Assembly: GCA_002840535.1 (NCBI GenBank)
Contig: PHBH01000025.1
Coordinates: forward strand, 1 to 64,000
Reading direction: 5' to 3'
Origin: Deltaproteobacteria bacterium HGW-Deltaproteobacteria-15
GTDB taxonomy: Bacteria; Desulfobacterota; DSM-4660; Desulfatiglandales; HGW-15
Length of the DNA stretch: 64,000 nucleotides
Shown here: positions 1-10,193 of the stretch, piece after piece
Numbering within the stretch: position 1 is the stretch's first letter
Layout: each line of letters starts with the position of its first letter
Made by a program: the position numbers and the translations under genes
The notes under the pieces: model-generated
The model's database searches: none
Seen by the model: only the letters and a program-made list of their open reading frames with translations
What the model was told of the DNA's origin: nothing

Positions 1-17
1 CAAAATTGAGCAGCGGC

Positions 18-83
18 ACTTAACAATTCACTGGTGCCGACCCGGCCAAAAAACGGCCGGGCCGCACAGTTCAATCGTTACAT
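18..83 (+). other. integron attC-like site 1
   Basis: This imperfect palindrome has an integron attC layout. An R''-like core ACTTAAC lies at 18-24 and an R'-like core GTTACAT at 77-83. The arms CTGGTGC (31-37) and GCACAG (64-69) pair, leaving one extrahelical G, and a central stem CCGGCC (42-47)/GGCCGG (55-60) closes the structure. The 66-bp length and the order of boxes resemble the classical 60-bp attC of aadA cassettes, including TAACAATTC next to the first core. The last core has one mismatch to GTTRRRY. No integron integrase is visible; it could lie upstream of the window. Confidence 0.65.
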
Positions 84-97
84 CCCAGGGCATGCGC

Positions 98-204
98 AGA
101 GGGACGCTCTTTAGGAATTTAATTCAATCAATCGAGTCGAGATCAATGAAGAGTCAATTCGCTGAATAGAAAAGTTATTGAATTACGAAAGAGCGTCCCG
201 CTCT
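98..204. repeat. inverted-repeat element (MITE-like), non-coding
   Basis: Two arms of about 28 bp, 98-128 and 177-204, are near-perfect reverse complements sharing GGGACGCTCTTT and AATTCAAT. They enclose about 48 bp with no ORF. The size and arrangement suggest a miniature inverted-repeat element or IS remnant between the first attC-like site and the SDR gene. No target-site duplication was confirmed. Confidence 0.5.
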
Positions 205-312
205 AAGAAGCGCTAATAAGGGAACGGCGATACACCCTTGAGGGAGAGAAAGCATAATCGCATGTACGTCCCGAAAGCGCTATAAGAAGTGCAGGAAATG
301 AAGGAGAATTCT

Positions 313-999
313 TTGACGCAATCCAAGGCAATGCTTGTTGGTAATTCTGACGGCATAGGTTTGGCGACAACAAAGAGGTTGCTTGCCGCCGGGTGGGATA
401 TCGTCGGCGTATCAAGAAGCGAATCGCCAATCACCAACACAGCTTATCATCACTGGGTCGCAGACGTCAGTGAAAGCCGCTATGCAGACCTGATGAATGA
501 ACTGGTACTGATAGGTCCATTAGATCTGTGTATCTACTTCGTGGGGATTGGCGAGCTACTGAACCCCTTGGATATGAGCGGCGAAGCACGAATCATCGAC
601 GTAAACCTGACCGGAATGGTAAGAACCGCAGCAGCGGTCATTCCCCATATGGTGAGAAACGGAAGGGGTCACTTCATTGGGGTGTCCAGTCTGGCAGATG
701 AGTTGCTTTCCTCTGAGGCTCCTTCTTATCACGCTTCCAAGGCTGGTTTTTCAAATTACCTTGGAGGTCTGGCGTTGGCCTTGAAACCCAAGGGTGTGCA
801 TGTCACGAATGTCCGGTTTGGGTTCGTCGACACAAAAATGGCAAAAGGTGATGTGAAGCCGTTTATGATCAACGTCCAGAAGGCAGTTGACCATTTGGAG
901 AACTGCATCAGAAAGAAGCCGGCCTGTTACACCGCACCCAAAATTGTGATTCCGCTCATCAAGTTTCGTAAGCTGATGATGACACTTGGCGGGAAATGA
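313..999 (+). CDS. short-chain dehydrogenase/reductase (SDR)
   Basis: This 228-aa classical SDR is a probable NAD(P)-dependent oxidoreductase of unknown substrate. The nucleotide-binding motif near the N terminus is VGNSDGIG, a variant of TGxxxGIG. The catalytic Ser (GVSS) is followed 13 residues later by the YHASK motif with Tyr and Lys. I prefer the TTG start at 313 because AAGGAG at 301-306 sits 6 nt upstream; a GTG at 289 would add eight residues but has no good ribosome site. The gene lies between attC-like sites at 18-83 and 1022-1082, so it reads as the body of an integron cassette, consistent with its isolation from neighbouring pathways. Confidence 0.85.
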   Translation: MTQSKAMLVGNSDGIGLATTKRLLAAGWDIVGVSRSESPITNTAYHHWVADVSESRYADLMNELVLIGPLDLCIYFVGIGELLNPLDMSGEARIIDVNLTGMVRTAAAVIPHMVRNGRGHFIGVSSLADELLSSEAPSYHASKAGFSNYLGGLALALKPKGVHVTNVRFGFVDTKMAKGDVKPFMINVQKAVDHLENCIRKKPACYTAPKIVIPLIKFRKLMMTLGGK

Positions 1000-1021
1000 C
1001 CATTTGCGACGCAAAAACTGC

Positions 1022-1082
1022 GGCTAACCAAGTTGGTGCAGCGGACCTCGCTGGCGCTCGGACGCTGACCACGCCGTTAGAG
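1022..1082 (+). other. integron attC-like site 2
   Basis: This 61-bp imperfect palindrome starts 22 bp after the SDR stop, the position expected of a cassette's own attC. Cores are GGCTAAC (1022-1028) and GTTAGAG (1076-1082). The inner arms GGTGCAGCG and CGCTGACC pair with one unpaired G, the extrahelical base typical of attC bottom strands. Both cores deviate by a base from the RYYYAAC/GTTRRRY consensus. Confidence 0.6.
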
Positions 1083-1096
1083 ACAAGGCTCGAAAA

Positions 1097-1160
1097 ATCC
1101 AACCTTGCTTCTGAAGTGCGGCACGTGAAGAAGAGCCGTCACTGAGCAGCGGCGTTAGCC
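1097..1160 (+). other. integron attC-like site 3
   Basis: This is a third palindrome of the same size class (64 bp). Cores are ATCCAAC (1097-1103, matching RYYYAAC) and GTTAGCC (1154-1160, one mismatch). Inner arms TGCGGC and GCCGTCA pair with one extrahelical base, and outer arms TTGCT and AGCA also pair. The distance from the previous site leaves a cassette of only about 78 bp with no ORF. The next gene begins 12 bp downstream. Confidence 0.5.
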
Positions 1161-1171
1161 CGGAGTAGGGA

Positions 1172-1984
1172 ATGAAAATAAGAAACAAAGGCCAATTCAT
1201 ACGAAAGTTCCGGGGACGGTTTTCGCTGCGCCTTCACATGTTCGCTATCCTTACCGCGACAGCGTGCTCTGGCGTACTCGCCTCGAAAGTGCTTCTTGAA
1301 CTCGGTGTCAGTAGCCTTCCGATCAGGTACCCACTTGCAGTGCTGCTTGCATATCTTGTCTTCTTCCTGTGCGTGAGACTCTGGCTCATTTACGTCACTC
1401 CCCCCAAAAAAGGCGGAGGTTCACACCTAACCGATTGGCTCGACTTCCCAGATTTTTCAGCGCCGGGTAGTCCTGCCGGCGTGCGTGTGCCCATTCTCCG
1501 CCCTGGTGGAGGTCAGTTCGGCGGAGCGGGTGCTTCGGCTTCGTTCGATGCTTCTACTGCGATACCCTCTGATCTCCACTCCGCTGTAGGCAAAGCTGCC
1601 TCCGGTGCTGCAGACGGTCTTGGCGATGCCGTCGGTGAAGCCGCTGGTGCATTGGGAGAGGAGGGCGGTTTCATCATAGTCGTGGTCGTTGCCGTGCTTT
1701 TAGTGCTGCTCGCGACAATCCTCGGCGCCACCGTTTACGTCGTTTACGAGGCCCCTGTGATCCTGTCAGAAGCTGCATTCGAAACCCTGCTTGCCGCCTC
1801 GCTGATCAGAAAAGCTAAGAAGATGGGCAATGGAGACTGGGTCGGGAGCATCTTTTCTACAACTTGGAAGCCATTCCTGATTACCTTGGTCATGGCTCTG
1901 GTAGCCGGCGGGATTCTGAAATATTACTTCCCTGGAGCAATCCGGGTTGCCGAAATACTATCTGAGGTAGCCACTTCACGGTGA
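1172..1984 (+). CDS. hypothetical multi-pass membrane protein
   Basis: This 270-aa protein belongs to no family I recognise. Hydrophobic segments at about residues 18-40, 48-75, 163-190 and 228-252 look membrane-spanning. The region between the second and third segments is Gly/Ala/Ser/Pro-rich and low in complexity (about residues 90-160). The ATG at 1172 follows GGAG at 1162-1165 with six bases between. It starts immediately after the third attC-like site, so it may be a cassette gene, but no attC follows its stop at 1984; alternatively it is the first resident gene after the array. Confidence 0.7.
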   Translation: MKIRNKGQFIRKFRGRFSLRLHMFAILTATACSGVLASKVLLELGVSSLPIRYPLAVLLAYLVFFLCVRLWLIYVTPPKKGGGSHLTDWLDFPDFSAPGSPAGVRVPILRPGGGQFGGAGASASFDASTAIPSDLHSAVGKAASGAADGLGDAVGEAAGALGEEGGFIIVVVVAVLLVLLATILGATVYVVYEAPVILSEAAFETLLAASLIRKAKKMGNGDWVGSIFSTTWKPFLITLVMALVAGGILKYYFPGAIRVAEILSEVATSR

Positions 1985-2057
1985 TAGCGGTGGGCACGTT
2001 GATGAGGAAGAAGTAGAAACACCGGGGAAACTCTGAAAATGTGCATAAGGAGGTGTC

Positions 2058-2936
2058 ATGGAGAACAGGGATGTTTTGGAAGATCATGATATTGCGACCA
2101 TGGAACTGTCTGATGGATACATATCGCATTATCGCTTGTGGGGCCCGTCATCCGGTAAGGACGTAATCATTATGCTTCATGGTGGAATGAGCCACTCGGA
2201 ATGGCAAGCGCCTTTGGCCCGTGCGATCAGCGGCGCATCGGACATCTCATTTGTGGCTCCGGACCGGAGGGGATGCGGCCTTAACGAGGTGGATCGGGGC
2301 GATCTCAAGTCCCTGGATCAACTTCTCGATGATGTCATCAGGTACGCTGGGCATTTTAAGGAATCCTTTAACAGGGTTCACCTGGCTGGATGGTGCCAGG
2401 GATGCCAGTTCACTGTGCCGGCGGCTCGCATGATAAAGAATCAAAACATTGTGAGCAGCCTTATTCTGATGACACCCGGGTTTTTCTGGAGCGAGCGCTT
2501 CATTACCGTGCAGCAAATTGCCAGGGAATTCTTCATGGCGTTTCTAATGGAATTCAAAATTCAGCCCGATCCTAATAAAGCTTTCATCCCTGTCCCCATG
2601 GTCAAAGAGGATTTTACCTCGATAAAAAAGTGGCTCGACTATATCGAGCAAGATGATCTGAAAACCACACGGGTGTCCTTAAATACCGCGGTGGTTATGG
2701 AATCGGGTCAAAGAAAGTCGACTGACGATATTTTAGAAATCAACATACCCGTTCTCGTTATTCTGGCTGAAAAAGACAAGATAGTCGACAGTATGAAGAT
2801 CAGGGATCATTTGAAAGAGGTTATGAAAAGATGCAAGCAAAGCCGTGTCATTCAGTTTGAAACACAGCATGCCGTTCATTTTGAAAAGGCTGAGGACCTT
2901 GCCGGTGAGATTAAAAAATTCGTTTCAGATTTATGA
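2058..2936 (+). CDS. alpha/beta-hydrolase fold protein with Cys nucleophile elbow
   Basis: This 292-aa alpha/beta-hydrolase has a strong ribosome site, AAGGAGG, just upstream of its ATG. The oxyanion-hole motif HGG is at about residue 35. The nucleophile elbow reads G-W-C-Q-G (residues 111-115), so the predicted nucleophile is Cys113 rather than Ser. An acid loop (EKDKIVD) and a catalytic His (QHAVHF) follow in the usual order near the C terminus. Cys nucleophiles occur in dienelactone-hydrolase-type and some acyl-transferring relatives. The substrate is unknown. The flanking genes are unrelated, and no signal peptide is seen. Confidence 0.85.
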   Translation: MENRDVLEDHDIATMELSDGYISHYRLWGPSSGKDVIIMLHGGMSHSEWQAPLARAISGASDISFVAPDRRGCGLNEVDRGDLKSLDQLLDDVIRYAGHFKESFNRVHLAGWCQGCQFTVPAARMIKNQNIVSSLILMTPGFFWSERFITVQQIAREFFMAFLMEFKIQPDPNKAFIPVPMVKEDFTSIKKWLDYIEQDDLKTTRVSLNTAVVMESGQRKSTDDILEINIPVLVILAEKDKIVDSMKIRDHLKEVMKRCKQSRVIQFETQHAVHFEKAEDLAGEIKKFVSDL

Positions 2937-3064
2937 GGAGTAGAATTTCCTGACGGAAGTCATGCGGCCGGTGGGTTTTCTCCCCGACCCTGTTGCTCTG
3001 GGGTCGTGCCGCGAGACGACACTCCTCACGACGAAACAATGAAGCAAAAGAAAGGAGCGATGCA

Positions 3065-3178
3065 ATGGGAGACAAAGGCGGAAAAAAGGATAAAGACAAG
3101 GGGAAGAAACAGAAGGTGACGAAGAAAGAGAAAGAGGAGAAGAAGAAGCAGGATAAGAAACCGAAGCGTGCCTCCTGA
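3065..3178 (+). CDS. 37-aa lysine-rich small protein
   Basis: A short protein starting MGDKGGKKDKDKGKKQK and made mainly of Lys, Asp, Glu and Gln, with no hydrophobic core. The ATG at 3065 follows AAAGGAG (3051-3057) at a normal spacing; the longer reading from 2993 lacks such a site. Very similar charged mini-proteins are common, unnamed genes in proteobacterial genomes. It is probably disordered; nucleic-acid or polyanion binding is only a guess from composition. Confidence 0.65.
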   Translation: MGDKGGKKDKDKGKKQKVTKKEKEEKKKQDKKPKRAS

Positions 3179-3343
3179 GGGGAATCGGGAGGACGTGAAG
3201 CTGAAGGATCTGCGCGAGTCGGGTAAAAGGGTGAGAGCGAATGAGCGGATTTTTGTAGGATCCGATTAGTCCCCGATGCTATGAGGTTGCCCAGGACCTC
3301 GGCTTTAAAAGACGTGCGATATTGAATCAGGGAGGAAGACCCG

Positions 3344-3700
3344 ATGCCACACTGCATACTCGAGTACTCCGCAAACGTTGTCGACCGGCCGGATATGGCC
3401 CGCCTTCTCAAGGAAATCCACGACGCTCTCATGGCGACAGGGCTGTTTATCCTGACTGACATCAAAAGCAGAGTCCTCCGGCACGAACAATACTTTATAG
3501 GCGACGGCGATCCTGAGCGGGCGTTCGTCACTCTGAACGTCCAGATTCTTCAAGGTCGGAGCGACGAGGTGAAGGCTCAAATCAGCGAGCCGGCCCTGCA
3601 GGTGCTGAAACGCGCTTTCCCGGAAACCCTCCGGCAGCGCAAGTGCAGCCTGACGGTACAGGTAAGTGAAATCCACCGCCCAAGTTACCGTCGCAACTGA
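3344..3700 (+). CDS. 5-carboxymethyl-2-hydroxymuconate isomerase (CHMI) family protein
   Basis: This 118-aa protein opens with MPHCILEYSANV, the signature start of CHMI-family tautomerases. There Pro1, exposed after removal of Met, is the catalytic base. The length matches the family (about 115-130 aa). In aromatic catabolism the enzyme isomerises carboxymethyl-hydroxymuconate, but no other homoprotocatechuate gene is nearby, so its substrate here may differ. A GGGAGG ribosome site precedes the ATG. Confidence 0.8.
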   Translation: MPHCILEYSANVVDRPDMARLLKEIHDALMATGLFILTDIKSRVLRHEQYFIGDGDPERAFVTLNVQILQGRSDEVKAQISEPALQVLKRAFPETLRQRKCSLTVQVSEIHRPSYRRN

Positions 3701-3793
3701 GGCAGGGGCCGGCGCGGTGAAGCCGAAAATTCGTGAATCCATGCAGATTGCCGGTCAACGAAGCAGAAGAAGGCCAAGGAAAAGCGCAAATCC

Positions 3794-4654
3794 ATGTCGC
3801 CTGCCGTATCGATAAAGGGGTTGATCAAGAACTATGGGAGGGTGAAAGCCCTCCGGGGGCTTGACCTGACTATTGAGACGGGTCAGATTTTTTGCCTTTT
3901 GGGGCCGAACGGAGCCGGGAAATCAACCCTGATCAAGGCCATTGTGGGTGCTGTCAGGCCGACCTCGGGGACCGTCGAAGTACTGGGGCATTCCATGCCC
4001 ATGGAAGCCCGGCTCGCAAGAACGCGTCTCGGATATATGCCTCAGGTGCCCGCACTCTATGAAGACTTGTCAGTCCGGGCCAATGTCAAGTTCTTTGGGC
4101 GGTCCCACAGGCTTGAAGATCTAAACAGGAGGATTGACCGTGTCCTTGACTTTGTCGGCCTCCTCTCTCTTTCCGGGCGCCGTACCGGCACCCTTTCAGG
4201 AGGGCTCAAACAGCGCTGCTCCCTCGCCTGCGCCCTGGTGCATGAACCGGAACTCCTGCTCCTCGATGAGCCGACGGCCGGGGTCGATCCCGTGCTCAAG
4301 GAGGGATTCTGGAAGCATTTTCGCTCTCTGACGGAGAAGGGCGTGACGATTGTGATATCCACCCACCTCATGGATGAGCCCCTGATATGCGACCGGATAG
4401 GTCTCCTCAGGGAAGGGTTCATGATCCTCGAGGATACTCCGGAGAACATCGTGGCAATGGGAAAAACGGACGTGCGCTTCGATAGGAACGGGAAATCGTT
4501 CACAGAAAGGGTCGGCGATTACTCCCGGGAACTGCCGGAGATGCTGAAGCGCTACGGCCTTGATCAAGGAATCTCCAGGATATCGCTCCATCAGGAGAAG
4601 CTGGAAGACATTCTCCTCCGGATCATAAGAGAGAGGAAAAGAGATGCTGAATAG
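3794..4654 (+). CDS. ABC-2 type transporter, ATP-binding protein
   Basis: This 286-aa ATPase has Walker A GPNGAGKST, signature LSGGLKQR, Walker B LLLLDEPTAGVD and a switch His (STHLMDE). The C-terminal tail after about residue 220 is typical of ABC-2 exporters (drug, antibiotic or polysaccharide). It overlaps the permease gene by 11 bp, so the two are translationally coupled and likely form a homodimer-plus-permease exporter in the cytoplasmic membrane. The substrate cannot be read from the sequence. Confidence 0.93.
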   Translation: MSPAVSIKGLIKNYGRVKALRGLDLTIETGQIFCLLGPNGAGKSTLIKAIVGAVRPTSGTVEVLGHSMPMEARLARTRLGYMPQVPALYEDLSVRANVKFFGRSHRLEDLNRRIDRVLDFVGLLSLSGRRTGTLSGGLKQRCSLACALVHEPELLLLDEPTAGVDPVLKEGFWKHFRSLTEKGVTIVISTHLMDEPLICDRIGLLREGFMILEDTPENIVAMGKTDVRFDRNGKSFTERVGDYSRELPEMLKRYGLDQGISRISLHQEKLEDILLRIIRERKRDAE

Positions 4655-5390
4655 TATCTTGGCAATCACCTGCCGGATCTACAGTCAGCTTCTTGGGGAC
4701 AAACGCTTTCTCGCTCTGGCCGTTTTTGTGCCCTTGATCATCTTCTATCTTTTCAAGGTGTTCATCCGCGCCCTGCCGGTCGAGCTCTTTACCAATCCCG
4801 AAGAGCTTTACATCCTGATCACGGCGTTTATCATCCATTTCACGTCCTATGTCCTCTGCCTGATTGTCATTGTCCGTGAGCGGAGGGACGAGACGCTGAG
4901 CCGAATGTTCGTAAATAACTTCAACCGTTCGGAGATCGTGATCGGGTATATCCTCGGCTACGCCGGTCTTGCCACACTCCAGGCCGTGCTCATCATGTTG
5001 GAAGTGGCGATCCTGTTCGAACTCTCATACACCATGAGCATGATGCTTTCCCTGTTCGCAGTGATGTGGGTCTTGTCACTGATCTCCATCGCCCTGGGCA
5101 TTATGTTCTCCAACCTGGCCAGAACCGAAGCCCAGATTTTCCCCTTTATCCCGCTGTTCATTCTCCCAACGATTTTTTTATCCGGCCTGCTCCTTCCAAT
5201 GAACAGCCTTCCCTGGAGCGTCCGCTGGCTTGGCTATCTCATCCCATTCACTTACGCTCAAAGGGCCATCAAACCGATGATCGCGGAGATGAGCGGTATT
5301 CCTTCTCATCTGGGTGAGTTCGCCGTCCTGATACTCTATGGTATCCTGCTGCTTGTTCTGTCGAGCATGACATTGAAACAGCGGGAGTAA
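4644..5390 (+). CDS. ABC-2 type transporter permease
   Basis: This 248-aa integral membrane protein has about six predicted transmembrane segments: near residues 20-40, 55-78, 100-130, 135-155, 170-190 and 225-243. It carries the ABC-2 pattern of a hydrophobic block with a PF/P-rich loop (FLSGLLLPMNSLPW) before the last helices. It overlaps the 3' end of the ATPase gene and provides the membrane channel of that exporter. Confidence 0.9.
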   Translation: MLNSILAITCRIYSQLLGDKRFLALAVFVPLIIFYLFKVFIRALPVELFTNPEELYILITAFIIHFTSYVLCLIVIVRERRDETLSRMFVNNFNRSEIVIGYILGYAGLATLQAVLIMLEVAILFELSYTMSMMLSLFAVMWVLSLISIALGIMFSNLARTEAQIFPFIPLFILPTIFLSGLLLPMNSLPWSVRWLGYLIPFTYAQRAIKPMIAEMSGIPSHLGEFAVLILYGILLLVLSSMTLKQRE

Positions 5391-5424
5391 TAGATTTGGG
5401 CGAAACGCCAAGGGGATTCGGTCC

Positions 5425-5904
5425 ATGAATCGAACATACAAGATACAGCGCAAGCTGATGGTACAGATTGCCGAACTCGAGCGGATCGGCATGCAACGGG
5501 ATACATCCCTCAACTGGGAGAGAATACACAGCGTGAGTTGTTCGAGGAGCGGGTATTTTCTCGCGCTGGAGCGGGGAGTCGATGCCGAACTGGCGGCCAT
5601 AGCGTGTTCCGTGCATGACTATGGAAGGATTATAACAGGAAAACAGCTCGGTCACGCTGAAGCAGGTTATGAGCCACTGAGGCGCTTTCTCATGGAGAGC
5701 GGCCATTTAGGCAGGGAAGAGGTCGAGTCGATTGCACAGGCGGCAAGAAACCACAGCAGGAAAGGGGAGACAGGAACTCCGATAGAGGAAATAGTCAAAG
5801 ATGCAGATGTATTGGAGTGCTATTGGTACGGGATTGCCATTGAAAAAGATGAATATAAAAGGCGGCTGGACAGACTGCAAGGGAGGTTCAGGCAAATAGC
5901 GTGA
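5425..5904 (+). CDS. HD-domain protein (putative metal-dependent phosphohydrolase)
   Basis: This 159-aa cytoplasmic protein has HD-superfamily ligands in order: His in ERIHS, the HD pair in VHDYGR (about residue 62), a His in GHAEAG and an Asp in VKDADVLE. Such domains hydrolyse phosphate esters or nucleotides; the substrate is unknown. It lies 34 bp behind the ABC permease and 39 bp before the cupin gene, so it may share their transcript. Confidence 0.8.
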   Translation: MNRTYKIQRKLMVQIAELERIGMQRDTSLNWERIHSVSCSRSGYFLALERGVDAELAAIACSVHDYGRIITGKQLGHAEAGYEPLRRFLMESGHLGREEVESIAQAARNHSRKGETGTPIEEIVKDADVLECYWYGIAIEKDEYKRRLDRLQGRFRQIA

Positions 5905-6875: not shown

Positions 6876-7120
6876 CCTTGTTCTCTCCTTTGTTTGGAAT
6901 TCGATACCCTCCTGAAAAGCAAATCATGTGCCAAACCCTCTCTCCTGCGCTCGGAAAGCATTGCGGTAGTAAGCGGGAATTGCTAGAAGAAGAGACGAGA
7001 CACCGCACCAAGTCAGGATGCAAGGGAGGAATGATCATGAAGATCCTCGGGGTGCATAGGGATCAGGAACGGATCTCTGCCGGAGGTGTATGAATAACAG
7101 GAAAGAGAGGCATTTCTTGA

Positions 7121-7981
7121 ATGGAATTGACCCAGACAAAGTATGAAGTCGAAAAGGGCATAGCAACGGTTACGCTGAACCGTCCTGACCAGTTGAACGC
7201 GTTTACCAAGGTCATGCGAAAAGAGCTGATCGACATCTTCAGCGCGGCCGATCAGGACGATTCGGTGCGCGCGGTAGTGGTGACGGGCGCGGGCAGGGCC
7301 TTCTGCGCCGGCGCGGACTTGTCCTCCGGCGCCGGCGCCTTTGAACGGGCAATGCAGGACGGCCGGAACGTCTCTCTGGCGGAACATCGCGATGGCGGCG
7401 GACAGGTTTCCCTCGCGATCTTCAGGTGCCGGAAACCTGTGATCGGAGCGATCAATGGGCACGCGGTCGGGGTGGGCATTACCATGACCCTGCCAATGGA
7501 TATCCGGATTGTCTCTGAGGATGCAAAGATCGGATTTGTCTTTGCCAGGCGCGGGGTGGTCCCCGAGGCATGCTCGTCGTGGTTTCTCCCCAGAATCGTG
7601 GGGATCTCCAAGGCGGCCGAGTGGATCTATACGGGCCGGGTTTTCCGCGCTTCGGAAGAGGCGAATTCCGGCCTGTTCAATCATGTGCTTCCTACGGACA
7701 AGGTGCTGGAAAAGGCGATGACGATTGCGCGTGAAATTGCCGAGAATACATCCGCCATATCCGTTGCGCTCGGCAAGGCGTTGTTGTGGCATGCCCATGC
7801 GGAAGCGGATCCCCAGTCGGCCCACCTGATCGATTCAAAATGCTTCTACTGGGCAGGCCTCCAGAAGGATTCACGGGAGGGAGTTCAGAGTTTTCTGGAG
7901 AAAAGGAAGCCCCGGTTTACAATGAAGGTCAGTTCCGACATGCCCGATTTCTATCCGTGGTGGAAAGAGCCGAAGGTCTGA
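7121..7981 (+). CDS. enoyl-CoA hydratase/isomerase (crotonase) family protein
   Basis: This 286-aa crotonase-fold enzyme has the first oxyanion-hole segment GRAFCAGADLSSG and the second region with FARRGVVPEACSSW. The Glu in VPEA corresponds to the usual catalytic acid position, followed by LPRIVG. It probably acts on an acyl-CoA in beta-oxidation or a related pathway. It stands alone, without thiolase or acyl-CoA dehydrogenase neighbours. The ATG at 7121 has only a weak GAGAGG upstream. Confidence 0.88.
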   Translation: MELTQTKYEVEKGIATVTLNRPDQLNAFTKVMRKELIDIFSAADQDDSVRAVVVTGAGRAFCAGADLSSGAGAFERAMQDGRNVSLAEHRDGGGQVSLAIFRCRKPVIGAINGHAVGVGITMTLPMDIRIVSEDAKIGFVFARRGVVPEACSSWFLPRIVGISKAAEWIYTGRVFRASEEANSGLFNHVLPTDKVLEKAMTIAREIAENTSAISVALGKALLWHAHAEADPQSAHLIDSKCFYWAGLQKDSREGVQSFLEKRKPRFTMKVSSDMPDFYPWWKEPKV

Positions 7982-8768: not shown

Positions 8769-10193
8769 ATGAGTGATAAAATGACGGTCAAGGATGTCCT
8801 CGGCATGATCAAGAGGGAAGGCGTTGAGATCGTGGATCTCCGGTTCATGGACTTTCCCGGCATGTGGCAACACTTTTCCATTCCCGCGCGGGAGGTTGAC
8901 GAGGAAACCTTCGAAGGCGGGCTCGGTTTCGACGGGTCGAGCATCAGGGGATGGCAGGCTATCAATGAATCGGACATGCTGGTCAAGCCTGTAGCAGGAA
9001 CGGCTTTTATCGATCCATTCCTCCAGGCGAAGACGCTGGTCATGATCTGCAACATCGCCGATCCCATCACGGGAGAGGATTACACCCGTGATCCACGAAA
9101 CATCTCCCGAAAGGCTGAACAATATTTAAAGAACTCGGGGATTGCCGAGATACCCTACTTCGGGCCTGAGGCGGAGTTTTTCATCTTCGACGACATCCGC
9201 TTCGACCAGAACGAGCATGAAGGCTACTACCACATCGACAGTGTGGAAGGAAGGTGGAATGCGGGCCGCGTGGAGACCCCGAACCTGGGCTACAAGATTC
9301 GATACAAGGAAGGCTACTTCCCTGTTCCCCCCACCGACAGCCAGCAGGATCTCCGAAGCGAGATGCTGCTCAACCTGGAAAGAATGGGCATTATGATCGA
9401 GGCTCAGCACCACGAGGTGGCCACGGCGGGCCAGGCGGAGATCGATATGCGCTTCGGCCCGCTGGTCGAGATGGCGGACAATGTGTTGAAATACAAATAC
9501 GTCATCAAGAATACGGCCAAGAAATATGGAAAGACCGTAACCTTCATGCCCAAACCTCTCTTCGGCGATAATGGGAGCGGCATGCATGTTCATATTTCTC
9601 TGTGGAAAGGAAGTCAGAATCTCTTTGCAGGGAACGGGTATGCAGGTCTTTCCGAGATGGCGCTTCATGCGATCGGGGGGATTCTGAAGCATGCCCCCTC
9701 TCTGCTGGCATTTACCTCTCCGACCACGAACAGCTACAAAAGGCTGGTCCCGGGGTTCGAGGCCCCTGTGAACCTGGCGTATTCGAGGAGAAACCGAAGC
9801 GCCGCCGTCCGGATACCTCTTTACTCCTCATCTCCCAAGGCAAAGAGGCTCGAGTTCCGTTGCCCGGATCCAAGCTGCAACCCGTACCTGGCCTTCTCTG
9901 CGATATTGATGGCCGCGATAGACGGGATTCAGAAGAAGATCAATCCCGGCGAACCCTTGGACAAGGATATCTATGATCTTCCCCCCGAAGAACTGGAGAA
10001 AGTTCCCCATACGCCAGGGTCTCTCAGGGAAGCATTGAAAGCCTTGGAGGCGGACCATGAATACCTTCTAAAGGGGGATGTCTTCACATCCGATGTGATC
10101 GAGACGTGGATCTCTTACAAGATGGAAAAAGAGGTGATCGCCGTGGATCTCAGGCCCCATCCATGGGAATTCGCCCTGTACTACGATATTTAG
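8769..10193 (+). CDS. glnA: type I glutamine synthetase
   Basis: This 474-aa GSI makes glutamine from glutamate, ammonia and ATP. The length fits the family (about 470). Visible motifs are [11 protein letters not shown] in the N-terminal beta-grasp, the ATP/metal region ([17 protein letters not shown]) and NRSAAVRIP. The conserved adenylylation Tyr402 sits in DIYDLPPEE, the context of E. coli Tyr397, so the enzyme is GSI-beta-like and should respond to the GlnE encoded next door. ATG 8769 follows GAGGAAGC and is preferred over an in-frame start at 8715. It is transcribed from the sigma-54 promoter at 8667. Confidence 0.97.

Follow-up and report, generated by a model that had tools for sequence, protein, structure and literature searches.

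The first 1160 bp of the DNA analysed here pose a simple question: are the palindromes flanking an SDR-oxidoreductase gene the recombination sites of an integron and, if so, what kind of integron is it and which integrase serves it? The stretch as a whole (the window) comprises the first 64 kb of contig C36, position 1 being the left contig end, in a genome assembly of 6.98 Mb in 106 contigs with an estimated contamination of 7.89%. Because the window starts at a contig end, any array at this position is cut by the assembly.

attC sites and the SDR cassette

The features of the left end of the window are as follows.

18..83 (66 bp), + strand: attC site 1; R'' ACTTAAC at 18-24, R' GTTACAT at 77-83, crossover between 77 and 78
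78..1076, + strand: gene cassette of 999 bp between the G^TT crossovers that the R' boxes of sites 1 and 2 define
93..205, no strand assigned: 113-bp repeat with inverted ends (arms 98-123 and 177-202) in the 5' leader of the SDR cassette
313..999, + strand: SDR gene, the cassette cargo (PF00106, E 2.1e-27); ORF open from GTG 289
1022..1082 (61 bp), + strand: attC site 2; R'' GGCTAAC at 1022-1028, R' GTTAGAG at 1076-1082
1097..1160 (64 bp), + strand: doubtful or degenerate third attC-like site; R'' ATCCAAC at 1097-1103, R' GTTAGCC at 1154-1160
1172..1984, + strand: orphan membrane-protein-like ORF, beginning 12 bp past site 3, its middle part rich in glycine and alanine

The initial annotation had read 18-83, 1022-1082 and 1097-1160 as three attC sites, and all three core-bounded segments are indeed present at these positions. 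We scored them with two covariance models. The 14 seeds of R1 were three sites of the class 1 integron on plasmid R46 and 11 from intI-bearing loci of relatives, with none from the genome under study; covariation among the seed sites exceeds that of shuffles. R2 was built from 56 sites (37 from the own genome and 19 from relatives), none of them in the window. Site 1 scores 25.8 bits with R1 and 29.0 bits with R2, and site 2 scores 28.9 and 29.0 bits, respectively. At E≤5, R1 returned 24 matches in 178.6 kb (the window plus nine own-genome loci), and within the window it picked sites 1 and 2 only. A whole-genome R1 scan that scored 150 of its 2018 candidates lists site 2 and omits site 1; we count the latter against our preferred reading. 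R2 revealed no further attC above 6.9 bits within positions 1-5000, and an Rfam scan of the window gave no match at the gathering level.

Folding of the bottom strand as single-stranded DNA distinguishes the sites further. Site 1 reaches -18.7 kcal/mol (z -5.45; none of 200 shuffles as good). Site 2 adopts the nested attC shape with a stability that is not unusual (z -0.67; 44 of 200 shuffles), and the best fold of site 3 leaves the outer cores unpaired (z -1.32; 17 of 200 shuffles). Sites 1 and 2 have the RYYYAAC...GTTRRRY cores, the imperfect hairpin with an extrahelical base and the covariance score of an attC. The likeness of site 1 to the aadA attC, also proposed earlier, was borne out by AACAATTC and GCCGAC occurring in both. 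A core-plus-hairpin screen of the 64 kb passes sites 1 and 3 and fails site 2, against a mean of 0.1 passes in 30 first-order simulations; it carries little weight, because its thresholds were chosen post hoc and site 2 failed it.

The cores of site 3 fit with one mismatch between them. R1 run without filters gives 4.9 bits on the + strand and 3.7 on the - strand, and R2 gives 9.9 bits (E 0.56 in 5 kb). With scores this low in both models, the attC status of site 3 and the existence of a 78-bp cassette are unproven. Of the three sites initially annotated, two therefore stand, and the ORF-less 78-bp cassette that had been placed between sites 2 and 3 is unsupported.

The SDR gene was correctly placed between sites 1 and 2. 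Judging from the sequence, its likelier start is TTG 313, which is preceded by AAGGAG. One of 60 relatives (G012) has a homologue, at a contig end, with 61% identity over residues 3-172; no attC was found beside this closest homologue, which again counts against our preferred reading. A collection of plasmids yielded 30 records for the SDR, all below 60% identity and none with a link to a cassette. The ORF at 1172-1984 matches no Pfam or NCBIfam family and has no homologue among the 60 relatives searched; it is either the last cassette, having lost its attC, or the first gene outside the array. Ordinary genes take over from position 2058 (hydrolase, isomerase, ABC transporter, enoyl-CoA hydratase).

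The 113-bp repeat in the cassette leader has a 96% copy at C42:3654-3767 (L015:3654-3767 in locus coordinates) and is matched over shorter lengths in C18, C2 and C75; longer relatives occur in C2 (two), C43, C75 and C96. Copies of 113-130 bp, with ends GGGACGCTCTT.../...AAAGAGCGTCCC, are seen at window 93-205, L015:3654-3767, L017:1931-2060 and 5388-5516, L097:770-901, L018:9941-10043 and L217:858-979, mostly in cassette 5' leaders closely behind an attC. The C96 copy (L217) lies ~80 bp from a contig end, with an attC-like match of 22.2 bits ~0.7 kb off. We considered the repeat as part of the recombination machinery and dropped the idea, since its distance to the nearest attC varies.

Arrays, integrase and decayed heads in the genome

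The genome contains many attC arrays outside the window. At E≤0.5, R2 finds 58 attC matches in 17 own-genome sources on 15 contigs, a count that is not independent because 37 of the genome's own sites trained the model. The independent model R1 gives 47 matches at E≤3 on a comparable set; the lowest-scoring few are partial. Within every array the R2 matches lie on a single strand, and the attC strand also carries 48 of the 53 non-overlapping ORFs of at least 80 aa in 11 array spans. Among 31 genomes scanned with R2 at E≤0.05, the own genome leads with 39 matches, the runner-up (G006) having 19. The arrays are mostly near contig ends; those of C37 and the second array in C19 are interior. An intI gene or remnant is near only some of them.

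An intact intI is present on contig C9 (18704-19642, 434.8 bits, cut-off 265; frame L014:18125-19648). The ORF of 507 aa has an extended N-terminus, with two SAM-like stretches recognised by Pfam, and contains what we take to be the IntI-specific patch. An IS3-family element starts just past the stop codon, and the contig ends 89 bp past the match, within sequence that shares 78 identical bp with the end of an IS3-family element in C51. Scans with both R1 and R2 detected no attC on C9, another point against our preferred reading. The ORFs upstream of the gene include a VapBC-like pair (L014:16664-17269). The array had been described as lacking a visible integrase, which is true of the window stretch and not of the genome.

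The long form of IntI is also found in relatives, with open frames of at least 414 aa in 17 of 35 rows (own genome included). In the tree, the rows nearest to the C9 IntI are a Scalindua, a Fibrobacteres and a same-family (G008) IntI. On this tree, at least two changes are needed to account for the long form, which measures about 410-510 aa and has an additional SAM-like stretch at its N-terminus. An IntI group that is ~120 aa longer has already been reported (PMC2426708), together with numerous intI pseudogenes; according to the same paper, 20% of bacteria have more than one integrase.

Four other contigs carry remnants of the 3' end of intI.

C71: intI 3' remnant, 99 aa, 92%
C6: intI 3' remnant, 49 aa, 100%
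C19: intI 3' remnant, 32 aa, 97%
C37: intI 3' remnant, 52 aa, 62%

Weaker fragments from the middle of intI are present in C43. C6 and C71 retain the sequence upstream of intI as well as its 3' end, the middle being deleted. In all four remnant loci a same-strand array follows 3' of the remnant, which is the reverse layout. C71, C19 and C6 have a common segment that runs from the intI stop up to the GTT core. In C19, an IS91-family transposase and an adjoining second tyrosine recombinase (L020:7865-9043 and 9086-9889) are situated between remnant and array. C6 contains one cassette start twice, once after a putative attI and once after the attC at 192-287, with 97% identity over 175 bp from the GTT. 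These copies show the crossover point and a past cassette movement or duplication: the cassette stands next to both the putative attI and an attC, and the position of the crossover can be read exactly. The genome also illustrates the loss of integrases from reverse-layout heads whose arrays persist. The idea that the reverse layout is common to relatives with a long IntI was not supported: where both intI and an attC match were found (14 of 30 loci, several matches being weak and orientation being judged from coordinates), the layout is canonical in 13 loci, uncertain in one (L050) and reversed in none.

What, then, are the sites in the window? Chance palindromes around an ordinary SDR gene, with no integron involved, would be conceivable insofar as the core consensus is short and degenerate and the stability of site 2 is not unusual; with a model trained on other genomes picking just sites 1 and 2 in 64 kb, and with a genome rich in attC arrays and an intact intI, this reading is largely refuted and we consider it extremely improbable. 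The covariance scan suggested at the outset, taken as far as possible, did not leave all three sites below threshold, and the integron-type reading of the initial annotation (a CALIN or the terminal part of a chromosomal integron) is upheld, two of the three sites scoring well. That site 3 is a real attC, making 1077-1154 a minimal ORF-less cassette of 78 bp, we regard as unlikely. Its two cores, a spacing within range and its passing the post hoc screen speak for it; its scores and the outer stem missing from its best fold speak against it, and 78 bp leave little space beyond the site itself. Nor could 1077-1154 be tied to the genome's ~170-bp miniature element (see below): as a remnant of that element it scored 18, a value reached by 56 of 500 shuffles, and the candidate was rejected.

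A harder alternative is a true CALIN, a cluster of attC sites lacking an integrase (the term follows the available text of PMC7923331). Here the cassettes would have been left behind or seeded off-platform, with no integrase within several kb on the real chromosome. The first 64 kb of C36 contain no intI, so that none is physically linked to the window array; the array is short and gives way to ordinary metabolic genes, and the genome has many separate arrays with an integrase or remnant near only some. However, the window array is truncated by the contig end and its upstream sequence is missing. We hold a true CALIN to be a possibility of somewhat less than even weight. What the data support is a chromosomal integron seen at its distal end or, if C36 alone is considered, a CALIN. 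We are highly confident of the following composite reading: positions 1-1160 are the distal (downstream) end of a chromosomal-integron cassette array that lost its left side at the contig break; two of the sites, 1 and 2, are attC sites whose crossovers enclose a single 999-bp SDR-oxidoreductase cassette; at the array edge, site 3 is an attC-like hairpin that has decayed or arisen by chance; and the genome has one intact IntI that could act in trans along with at least four decayed reverse-layout heads. Besides the points already named, the low scores of site 3, the unremarkable stability of site 2, the lack of an intI linked to the array and the estimated contamination of the genome weigh against this reading. 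The left end of the window holds the last one or two cassettes of an integron broken by the assembly, and the integron is of an ordinary kind; the window itself adds one more chromosomal cassette, with an SDR gene, to a known type of system.

In such a system an IntI-type tyrosine recombinase would act at the G^TT of sites 1 and 2, using their bottom strand in folded form, and recombination at these points would excise the cassette 78-1076 or re-insert it. The intact IntI encoded on C9 could serve the array in trans. We infer that it does so or has done so in the past, and that the array is still mobile.

Miniature elements at attC crossovers

A repeat of ~170 bp with the ends GAGRCTGTCGAAAAA occurs in C71, C42, C43, C51 and C19. 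Copies of this inverted-repeat element sit at the GTT crossover of attC sites at L019:2490-2670, L015:2434-2604 and 4285-4450, L097:589-760, L096:11157-11329 (C51:73156-73328), L020:4-78 and 4629-4736, and L218:4905-5073 and 7109-7278. Searching the own genome for the end pattern with at most one mismatch gave 20 matches, 17 in array loci and three elsewhere, compared to three for a reversed-pattern control. An outer GTT flanks 16 of the 17 array ends (9/9 on the attC side and 7/8 on the other side).

Across the order, 28 of 85 genomes, the own one among them, have these ends, whereas the control pattern is seen in two of 85. An IS1182-family transposase (NF033551; 270.4 and 301.8 bits, cut-off 270) lies between a pair of ends ~1.8-1.9 kb apart in G006 and G054, respectively. 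All exactly read ends in G006, G008, G015, G067 and G076 are GTT-flanked, in one orientation or the other, as are two of six in G012. Many genomes have other flanks, for example AGC in several members of family f4, and the element of G054 itself is not at a GTT. R2 placed an attC exactly at the element end in six of 20 such loci (L161, L176, L181, L188, L199 and L211), a figure to be read with the provisos that L199 and L211 are apparently the same site in two genomes and that R2 includes sites with such ends, a mild bias. The plasmid collection contained no match to the element.

We also considered the ~170-bp element as a cassette mobilised by IntI. This is disfavoured, because the same terminal repeats enclose an IS1182-family transposase in relatives and the same termini occur outside GTT elsewhere in the order. 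On balance, we lean towards viewing the genome as the seat of an attC-specific transposon group besides IS1111-attC. IS1182-family elements and their ~170-bp miniatures would enter attC sites precisely at the crossover and in a single orientation, flanked by GTT on either side; a usable R' box would remain, and the next cassette moved by IntI would take them along. The reverse-layout heads with deleted integrases, served in trans by the one intact IntI, would carry the elements across many arrays. At the level of titles and abstracts, in a literature covered mostly outside subscription journals, we recognised no description of an IS1182-type attC element, and the available text of PMC9137128 merely lists IS1182 among detected elements. 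If the proposal is true, IS1182-type attC targeting gives transposons a second way of exploiting the recombination sites of integrons, and the miniature forms would be useful for studying how a transposase reads the attC core. The miniature elements lie outside the window; they are the newest side result of this analysis and the one most worth following up.

Comparison with known systems

The attC architecture of the window is like that of class 1 integron cassettes, as exemplified by plasmid R46 and the aadA attC with which site 1 has the two motifs in common; the window cassette differs in its unrelated cargo and its chromosomal setting. It resembles a CALIN in having two good attC sites without an intI on the C36 stretch, and differs in that the array ends at a contig break on its left side and integrase genes exist elsewhere in the genome.

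A close parallel for the arrays as a whole is the sedentary chromosomal integron of Treponema denticola, which likewise consists of attC-separated cassettes. According to the available text of PMC3607928, the reverse layout is known from Treponema, whose intI is tied to those of Kuenenia, Chlorobium, Synechococcus and Blastopirellula. As in T. denticola, intI in the remnant loci described here reads toward attI, in the direction of the cassettes. Unlike the single locus of T. denticola, the present genome has several decayed heads on different contigs, and its IntI is of the long type.

The ~170-bp element can be compared to the IS1111-attC insertion sequences (Tetu & Holmes 2008; Post & Hall 2009, as cited in the available text of PMC11187229). 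Both are mobile elements located at one end of attC sites. The element found here differs in being associated with an IS1182-family transposase in relatives (NF033551) and in having terminal inverted repeats that are flanked by GTT on both sides.
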